52,429 bases of DNA. Source: a virus. Below are positions 40,630 through 42,765 of this stretch, piece by piece. Under the pieces are notes generated by a model. That model saw only the letters and a list, made by a program, of their open reading frames with translations. It made no database searches and had not been told where the DNA came from. Within the stretch, counting starts at the first letter, position 1; every line of letters begins with the position of its first letter. The stretch is taken from positions 1 through 52,429 of the IMG/VR virus record IMGVR_UViG_3300037153_000540, one strand, 5' to 3'. The position numbers and the translations under genes were made by a program.

Positions 40630-41679
40630 GTGTCAGTAGCGCTGCGCGGCAGCAGCTCGGCAGCGGTCGGCACGAACACGCTGACCCTCACCATCCCCAG
40701 CAGCGTCCAAGCCGGCGACGCGCTGTTCATCATCGCGGGCTGCGGCGACGCAGGTGTGGCGTGGGCAACCCCCGCCGGGTGGACGCTCGTCGAGCGCCGC
40801 TCGCGTGACACGTCCACGACCGGCATGATGGCCGCGATCTTCAAGAAGGTCGCGACGTCCGGAGATGCCTCCGCCTCGGTGGTGCTCACCGCATCCACCA
40901 CCGCGCACTCCGCCGGCATGGTCATCGCCTACTCCGGTACCGACATCGTCGACCCCGTGCACGTATGGGCAGGGTTCACCGAGTCTTCCGGCTCGGCGAT
41001 CAACACGCATGCGCTGCCGTCGGTGACAACGACGCTGGCCAACTGCATGATCTTCTCGGGCATCGTGGGCAAGGACTCGGCGACGACGGCGTGGACGATG
41101 CCGGCCGGGTACACGAAAGAGATCGACGTCTACTTCGCCCAGTCCGGGCGGACGACCGGCGCGATCGGCGACAAGGGGCCCGTCGCGATCGGCACGTACA
41201 ACCCCGGCAACGCCACCCAGGACGGCGCGAGCAAATACGCGTTCGCGTGGACGATCGCCGTCGCTCCGTTCTCCGCGACCCAGACCGTCCGGCCGGTCCT
41301 CGACAAGACCGTCACCAGCACGGTCGGTGTGCCGACACCCGGCGGCGGCTCGGACATCTCCTCCGACGTCGCCGCGAACGACGACACGCACTACGCCGAG
41401 CTGAGCAACTCCGGAGTCTACGAGTGCCTGTTCTCCAGCCTCGTCGACCCGGCGTCTAGCTCGGGGCACACGATCCGGTACCGTCTCGCGTTCGGCGGCG
41501 GCGCGACAGCGGGATCGTCCTCGACCACACTCCGCCAGGGCTCTACGGTCATCGCGACCTGGACCGATACCGCGACCGGCAGCTTCGGGGACTTCACACA
41601 CACGCTCACCGGCACGCAGGCCGACGCGATCACAGACTACTCGGATTTGAGAGTGAGATTTTCTGCCACAGTCTCTTGA
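40630..41679 (+). CDS. fibre-like tail protein with a replaced 3' end
   Basis: A 349-residue beta-rich protein (DALFIIAGCGDAGVAWATPA; SAGMVIAYSGTDIVDPVHVW). Its last 13 codons give YSDLRVRFSATVS in unusually low-GC codons (TTG, AGA, TTT, TCT). An equivalent in GC-rich codons, YSDLRIRFTATVS, lies at 42421-42462 on the other side of the antisense HNH gene. Eleven of 13 residues are identical. The gene therefore ends in a recoded copy that overlaps the endonuclease. Confidence 0.75.
   Translation: MSVALRGSSSAAVGTNTLTLTIPSSVQAGDALFIIAGCGDAGVAWATPAGWTLVERRSRDTSTTGMMAAIFKKVATSGDASASVVLTASTTAHSAGMVIAYSGTDIVDPVHVWAGFTESSGSAINTHALPSVTTTLANCMIFSGIVGKDSATTAWTMPAGYTKEIDVYFAQSGRTTGAIGDKGPVAIGTYNPGNATQDGASKYAFAWTIAVAPFSATQTVRPVLDKTVTSTVGVPTPGGGSDISSDVAANDDTHYAELSNSGVYECLFSSLVDPASSSGHTIRYRLAFGGGATAGSSSTTLRQGSTVIATWTDTATGSFGDFTHTLTGTQADAITDYSDLRVRFSATVS
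41636..41642 (+). repeat. short direct repeat at cassette edge (left)
   Basis: ACTACTC, repeated at 42419-42425. The HNH stop codon (TAG on the minus strand, 41639-41637) is formed from this sequence. Confidence 0.5.
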
Positions 41680-42377
41680 TGCGGGCAATAGCCGTAGAAC
41701 CCGTAGGCAGAATTGCAGTTATGGCACAAGACTCGAAACCCTTCAGGGAAACCGTTGTCTCGCAGCCACCTATAGAAACCAGCCCCGACGCCTATCCCTT
41801 GTGCGCGCAATTGCTTGCGATGCTCCGCGCCGTCGCCGTTAATGTGATCTATCGCAAGGAACTGGATGGTCGTCTCTGCGCAGCACACGCAGACAGGGCC
41901 GCCGTACGCGGCGAACACGTCGGCGCGCAGCTCTTGGTGGCGTTTGCGGGCGCGCTGGTTCCGCAGGTCCTTGTGTTCTCTGTTCCACTTGTTGATGCGC
42001 TCACGGACCGAAGGATCCGCACGGTACTGCTCGCGGCGACGTTGGCGTGATCGTTCGCGGGTGGCATCCTTGCGGGCCTGGCGTTCCAACTCTCGCTGCT
42101 CCAGATAAGCGGCGTACTCCTCAGGAGTTCTTCCTTTGAGGCGTCTGCGCTCTTTGCGGGCCTCGACCATGCATGCATCGGAGCAGTAGTTCTTGCTGCG
42201 CGATCTCATTAGTGGTGTTGAGCACCAAAGACAATTCGTTACTTTAAGGGTCGCTCGGCCTCGCCTACGCCGCGCCTCCTGGATGCACTTCTTAGAGCAG
42301 AAACGTTTGATTGATCTGCCGCTGATTTGGTCGCCGCATACTTCGCATTGCCGCTCTTCGGGAGGCGTTTCCTGCAT
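41637..42377 (-). CDS. HNH homing endonuclease antisense to tail gene end
   Basis: A 246-residue protein. Two N-terminal fingers (CEVCGDQISGRSIKRFCSKK and CLWCSTPLMRSRSKNYCSDA), a long basic linker and an HNH-type core (VCVCCAETTIQFLAIDHING, LCHNCNSAYGFYGYC). The last codons (ENLTLKSE, stop) overlap the recoded end of the tail gene by 43 bp. Upstream on its strand a TATCCT box lies about 10 nt from the ATG, so it probably has its own promoter. Distinctly low GC. Confidence 0.88.
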   Translation of the reverse strand: MQETPPEERQCEVCGDQISGRSIKRFCSKKCIQEARRRRGRATLKVTNCLWCSTPLMRSRSKNYCSDACMVEARKERRRLKGRTPEEYAAYLEQRELERQARKDATRERSRQRRREQYRADPSVRERINKWNREHKDLRNQRARKRHQELRADVFAAYGGPVCVCCAETTIQFLAIDHINGDGAEHRKQLRAQGIGVGAGFYRWLRDNGFPEGFRVLCHNCNSAYGFYGYCPHQETVAENLTLKSE

Positions 42378-42418
42378 GTGTATAGGATACCAAAATTGCG
42401 GTCACGAAAGATTGCTGC

Positions 42419-42425
42419 ACTACTC
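42419..42425 (+). repeat. short direct repeat at cassette edge (right)
   Basis: ACTACTC, the partner of 41636-41642, at the start of the stranded host codons. Confidence 0.5.
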
Positions 42426-42462
42426 CGACCTGCGGATCCGTTTTACCGCGACGGTGTCGTAG
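42421..42462 (+). pseudogene. stranded original 3' end of the tail gene
   Basis: Codes YSDLRIRFTATVS and a TAG, in GC-rich codons typical of the phage. TTG of the next gene follows with no gap, showing that the original tail gene was directly coupled to it before the HNH cassette inserted. Confidence 0.7.
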
Positions 42463-42765
42463 TTGGCCGCCGTCCTCCGCGTCGCCCAGGTCGCCCTGTT
42501 CACCCCGGCGGCACCGCGGCTGCGCGTCTCGCAGGTCTCGCTGCAGGTCCCCACGCCGCCGACGGGTGGTACGACGGTTCTGCGCGTTTCGCAGGTGAAG
42601 TTCACGGCCCCGGCGCCGCCGCCAGCGGGCGTGCTGCGTGTCTCGCAGGTTCGCCTGTCCGCGCCGCTCGCGCCGGGCAGCATCCCCTACTCCGGCGTGA
42701 TGCAGGCGTCTGGGGGGAACCTGCGGAACGTCCCGATCTGGATCTCCAAGGACGGCGAGCTGTAA
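42463..42765 (+). CDS. small repeat protein of the tail-fibre region
   Basis: A 100-residue protein from TTG, starting right after the stranded TAG. Four repeats of the form LRVSQVxLxxPxxP (one with LRVAQV) make up residues 4-70, followed by GVMQASGGNLRNVPIWISKD. Repeats of this kind suggest a small extended beta structure. With its original coupling lost, its present translation is uncertain. Confidence 0.6.
   Translation: MAAVLRVAQVALFTPAAPRLRVSQVSLQVPTPPTGGTTVLRVSQVKFTAPAPPPAGVLRVSQVRLSAPLAPGSIPYSGVMQASGGNLRNVPIWISKDGEL

Follow-up and report, generated by a model that had tools for sequence, protein, structure and literature searches.

Our analysis of a 52,429-nt stretch of viral DNA (IMG/VR record IMGVR_UViG_3300037153_000540, positions 1 to 52,429; hereafter the window) concerns a tail-region gene whose 3' end overlaps that of an antisense HNH endonuclease gene by 43 bp, from 41637 to 41679, with a second copy of the tail gene's end lying on the far side of the HNH gene (Table 1). 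The tail-region gene has a minor tail protein (phrog_538) on one side and endolysins on the other, and its ORF closes with ...QADAITDYSDLRVRFSATVS and a stop codon. The detached copy reads TACTCCGACCTGCGGATCCGTTTTACCGCGACGGTGTCGTAG at the DNA level, and the TTG of the next gene follows at 42463. ACTACTC stands on both sides of the HNH gene, whose stop codon, TAG, is the complement of the CTA at 41637-41639 within the left ACTACTC. An earlier, sequence-only reading had described the low-GC end of the tail gene, the 43-bp antisense overlap, a GC-rich copy with 11 of 13 residues identical lying flush with the next start, the two ACTACTC motifs and the HNH stop made from the left one, and each of these was found in the sequence where it had been placed.

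Table 1. Features of the tail-gene/HNH locus, in coordinates of the window.
Feature	Position	Strand	Basis or remark
Tail-region gene, 349 aa; hybrid of native body and imported 3' end	40630..41679	+	ORF
Left ACTACTC	41636..41642	.	sequence
HNH endonuclease gene, 246 aa, motif FLAIDHINGDG...LCHNCN...GYCPH	41637..42377	-	antisense to tail gene
Attached, imported end, YSDLRVRFSATVS and stop; low-GC codons	41638..41679	+	GC3 and comparison of copies
HNH CPH codons	41679..41687	-	tail stop codon touches their antisense
AT-rich spacer, 41 bp, GC 0.43, from HNH start to native end	42378..42418	.	
Right ACTACTC, opening the native tract	42419..42425	.	sequence
Displaced native end, YSDLRIRFTATVS and stop; GC-rich, phage-type codons	42421..42462	+	GC3 and relatives' DNA
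Next gene, 100 aa, repeated VLRVSQV strands	42463..42765	+	directly after native stop, same frame

The HNH ORF matches the HNH endonuclease family phrog_1271 (E 2.7e-11) and contains an HNH motif with zinc-binding cysteines; C163, C165, C166, D177, H178, C218, C221, N222 and C231 are invariant in 12 HNH homologues, and a Pfam search of the protein returned no family at its cut-off. The HNH domain model (pLDDT 85) has two strands followed by a helix. Its best Foldseek match is SciA of phage T5 (E 0.16), and residues 147-237 gave a VIA Z of 3.2 to the Gme HNH nicking enzyme; in structure searches with the whole protein and with the domain, the HNH matches all fell below significance. Since the tail stop codon touches the antisense of the CPH codons, the C-terminal tail of the HNH protein is encoded by the antisense of the host gene.

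The attached and detached copies share 11 of 13 residues, and elsewhere in the whole 52-kb window, read in all six frames, the peptide closest to the 13-mer shares only seven of 13, so the duplication of the end is not due to chance. At the DNA level, within the 13 codons that this locus offers for comparison, the third base agrees at 3 of 12 identical positions and the whole codon at 2 of 12 (the stop counted as a position). GC3 is 0.43 in the attached end, 0.86 in the detached end, 0.90 in the rest of the tail gene and 0.65 in the HNH gene.

Relatives of the tail-region gene were found in twelve viral loci (L001-L012), all of which have its C-terminal domain. The sequence-only reading had pointed to relatives lacking the HNH gene, where the tail gene should run directly into its downstream neighbour, and this expectation was borne out: each relative with the QADAITDY site has one uninterrupted end, and in the best parallel, L006 (...QADAITDYSDLALRITATAA and stop; TGA CCC ATG), the gene passes through YSDL to its stop and is followed by the ATG of the next gene. 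That next gene encodes a repeat protein in the style of the one in the window, a likeness that is not significant on its own. In both records the next gene lies in the frame of the tail gene (window 42460-42765, L006 7036-7416), which would allow stop read-through or a recent fission, and in L001 and L003 no stop follows the tail domain, which leads on into a similar strand (VQVSWAELEVP). A search of six relatives' records for an HNH homologue found none. The insertion is present in the window and absent from L006 and the other relatives that have the QADAITDY site, all of them distant.

At the DNA level, the detached copy is nearer than the attached one to seven of eight HNH-free relatives; against L006, the displaced copy matches at 27 of 36 bases and the attached copy at 19 of 36. 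Relatives without the HNH gene have just one end, to which the L006 gene runs through, and the detached copy, unlike the attached one, has the GC3 of the host and is the nearer in DNA to most of these relatives; the detached copy is therefore the native end, and the attached low-GC copy is the newcomer, which arrived with the HNH gene. The insertion left the tail gene unbroken, as the sequence-only reading had held: the cassette supplied a replacement end, and the original one survives in displaced form. The closest HNH-free relatives of the gene have ~31-48% protein identity and a near-identical one was not found, so the empty site of the window's own phage is deduced from distant relatives rather than read directly; a phage collection searched with the locus, as DNA and as protein, gave no match. 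L006, L002, L003 and L007, with proteins about 40% alike, all have the identical 24-mer CAGGCCGACGCGATCACCGACTAC immediately ahead of the insertion point, a stretch that would make a suitably stable target.

From contigs of viruses and prokaryotes we took 188 distinct relatives of the window's HNH ORF, and an end-anchored test looked in each for a second copy of a neighbouring gene's end on the far side of the HNH gene (an earlier all-frames duplication search was dropped because it was swamped by low-complexity, GC-rich matches). Besides the window, 12 further end replacements, chosen by eye from the scored candidates, were found, seven at 3' ends and five at 5' ends. The HNH gene is convergent with its host gene, as in the window, in two of the 3' cases (L084, L048) and codirectional in the others (L177, L246, L121, L052, L133); in the 5' cases (L203, L059, L049, L255, L050) the start of the gene is displaced and a new start is supplied. 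The host genes include an N6/N4 methylase, a possible AAA-type ATPase, an SPFH/Band 7 protein, a PTH2 domain, a P-loop kinase and structural proteins. The duplicated part can be long, with over 100 codons of the N-terminal part of a methyltransferase in L050, beside which one HNH reading frame holds two HNH domains (L050:3848-4693).

In the same automatic test, a score of at least 59 was reached by 13 of 171 HNH loci versus 7 of 418 control genes (Fisher p 7e-4); the control hits that we inspected were tandem paralogues or low-complexity matches, and some HNH loci at score 59 (L184, L056) are false as well. Candidates were rejected because the score came from tandem HNH genes (L184), because a short ORF gave a match overlapping itself (L113), because of low complexity (L056, L268, L262, L300), or because a high-scoring match was unconvincing (L134, L131, L192); L020 (ITVTHPKD/LTVTHPED) is borderline. 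HNH genes can also cluster: L184 has two in tandem and L052 has three HNH ORFs within 3 kb.

Other loci bear out which side is native. At L255, the displaced kinase start retains an ATGA overlap with the upstream gene, and the HNH-free Gordonia phage AnarQue has the same 4-bp overlap. For the gene at L049, an HNH match was present in none of the other loci (80 fetched), and a relative of the L246 gene, 33% identical (L306), has one plain end. Close HNH-free relatives of the host genes of L246, L177, L048 and L121 were sought and none was found; one host-gene relative with 76% identity (L305) lies on a contig that stops short of the 3' end.

When the 12 cases (window left out) are mapped onto a tree built from 163 HNH cores, 11 changes are required, compared with 11.7 for shuffled labels, so the replacements arose independently. 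None of the ten HNH genes that we checked in named phages showed an end replacement, and end replacement is therefore one habit of the family rather than its definition. In Stenotrophomonas phage ANB28 (L399), an HNH relative lies between nrdA and nrdB and overlaps the end of nrdA by 10 bases; no duplicated nrdA end was found there.

The junctions are uniform. Where the HNH gene is convergent with its host gene (three cases), 0, 1 and 4 bases separate the new host stop from the antisense of the terminal CPH codons of the HNH gene. Where the two are codirectional at a 3' end, the displaced native end is read in the HNH frame and forms the C-terminus of the HNH protein in five cases out of five, an outcome that random frames would give once in 243. 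Taken together, the host stop at CPH and the native ends in the HNH frame place the end of the unit near the HNH core: the mobile unit seems to end near the last core codon, with the host completing the reading frame of the enzyme. At L049 (4216-4251), one stretch of DNA serves both as the antisense of the HNH YCPH codons and as the native start codons, now displaced, of a structural gene.

The sequence-only reading had called the arrangement a natural self-protecting, function-preserving homing design, in which the replacement end would also destroy the enzyme's own target. Preservation of the protein agrees with our results; selection of the recoding as self-protection is not supported. Over 11 cases, the two copies use the same codon at 38 of 121 identical residues, which is lower than the 51.9 expected from host codon usage (z -2.8) and fits an independent draw in which one copy follows HNH-like usage and the other host usage (42.6 expected, z -0.9), and selected recoding, tested in this way, was not supported. 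The attached end has a lower GC3 than the displaced end in nine of the 11 cases compared. With synonymous sites saturated and the peptide kept, these patterns point to attached ends that came from diverged homologues rather than from in-place duplication, and such an import would explain the codon divergence without selection for recoding. One case may differ: at L049, the copies are identical at ~35 of 36 bases across the ribosome-site region and the opening codons, and nearly every third base differs in the ~20 bases beside the insertion point, a pattern that hints at change focused on the target, that is, at selected recoding.

In our judgement, the locus very probably arose by a homing-type insertion, in which a free-standing HNH gene carrying a foreign, diverged gene end entered the last codons of the tail gene. 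The inserted unit would consist of the HNH gene and, fused to it, a foreign version of the tail gene's last ~13-16 codons, and its entry point would be the ACTACTC within the stretch coding for TDYSDL. The HNH enzyme, or an ancestor of it, may have cut the HNH-free allele at this site, and repair could then have transferred both the HNH gene and the end of the donor's gene, perhaps through homology on the gene side and rejoining at the break on the other. The body of the upstream gene would now read into the imported end, leaving the tail protein nearly unchanged, and the native end would have been pushed to the far side, severed from its own gene and still abutting the next one. The new allele should resist cutting, its site being split and its attached half diverged. 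The anatomy of the locus, the assignment of native and imported ends, the recurrence in 12 other genes, the independent origins and the uniform junctions are what the data show; cleavage at this site, homing and resistance to cutting are the parts of this account that we infer. Since the GC-rich half-site is still in the genome, protection would not come from removal of the GC-rich version; any protection would come from the split site (left half, insert, right half) and the diverged attached half. A bolder proposal, which we hold tentatively and on balance lean against, is that a widespread phage HNH lineage consists of natural home-and-rescue elements that invade either end of a gene, carry a selected, recoded terminus destroying their own site, and let the host gene close the HNH frame after the core.

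The same structure could have come about with a different purpose, or none. A donor HNH gene may have lain in the gap downstream of the gene, with repair co-converting a diverged end along with it and the far side being joined illegitimately; self-protection would play no part, and the layout would persist as insertions that wreck genes die out. We consider this passive origin a serious contender, falling not far short of an even chance: codon identity between the copies fits independent choice, the ten HNH genes in named phages have no duplicated ends, and flank co-conversion by free-standing phage homing endonuclease genes is established (PMC2988022). Against it stand the third-base changes concentrated beside the insertion point at L049, which resemble target-focused change, and the fact that 5' ends, too, are replaced.

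That the insertion made a direct repeat of ~43 bp whose copies diverged later is improbable. Such a target-site duplication would account for both copies spanning the same codons and ending at their own stops, but the displaced copy should then have decayed first, yet it has kept its frame, its stop and a GC3 close to that of the host (0.86 versus 0.90), and it is the translated copy that has the changed third bases and a GC3 of 0.43. The nearness of the displaced copy to HNH-free relatives and the lower attached GC3 in nine of 11 cases also speak against drift after duplication. It is very unlikely that the ends come from a pair of paralogous genes of which the right-hand one has decayed to a remnant: tandem paralogues are known in phages and were met among our control genes, but the right copy begins at ACTACTC without any part of the upstream domain, and HNH-free relatives have one end only. 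Group I introns often carry HNH genes, but a self-splicing HNH-encoding intron or intein that splits the gene is scarcely credible here, where the HNH gene is antisense, the upstream gene is a complete reading frame that closes with its own stop, and a search of the window against Rfam matched no family.

A homing-type insertion that brings its own gene end would account for a non-spliced homing gene lying within a coding sequence, and not just in the gaps between genes, with the gene unbroken and with no need for an intron or intein. Its recurrence gives a testable rule, namely that many genes have a 3' or 5' end replaced and that the junctions follow a single geometry, and hybrid ends of this kind can mislead gene phylogenies and annotation.

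Among phages, the nearest parallel is MobE in nrdA of Aeromonas phage Aeh1, which is likewise a free-standing homing gene within a coding sequence whose function is kept; the Aeh1 nrdA, however, remains two expressed pieces (cited in PMC10448857), whereas in the window an imported end makes the gene whole again. The T4 seg and mob endonucleases resemble the window's HNH gene in being free-standing, in flank co-conversion and in overlap of a neighbour's stop codon, but the accessible part of the review describes their insertions as intergenic, and a duplicated or replaced gene end was not found in it (PMC2988022). Nor was end replacement found in the available open-access text of the T4 review, a nuclease-boundary paper and a Skunavirus HNH paper. 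In the open-access literature, where an earlier description may exist, we found end replacement described only in fungal mitochondria. The fungal mORF hybrids (Allomyces macrogynus atp6; Glomus sp. atp6, atp9, cox2 and nad3; Rhizopus atp9; Mortierella cox2) have, like the window, a free-standing endonuclease ORF near the 3' end of a gene, a foreign C-terminus with diverged nucleotides and conserved protein, and a native C-terminus displaced behind the ORF that resembles that of an insert-free relative (PMC3630166). The window thus has the layout of an mORF-type hybrid, with the imported end attached and the native one beyond the endonuclease ORF. It is not a member of the fungal group, in which the enzymes are LAGLIDADG or GIY-YIG, the genomes mitochondrial and the ORF placed after the gene (PMC3630166): it carries an HNH enzyme in a virus record, and its system is found in phages and a few prokaryote contigs, is often antisense and extends to 5' ends. 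The layout is also a natural parallel of recoded-rescue gene drives: HomeR home-and-rescue drives, too, combine a nuclease gene with a recoded remainder of the target gene that is cut, and since HomeR is a synthetic CRISPR design for insects, the likeness is one of logic (PMC7968924).
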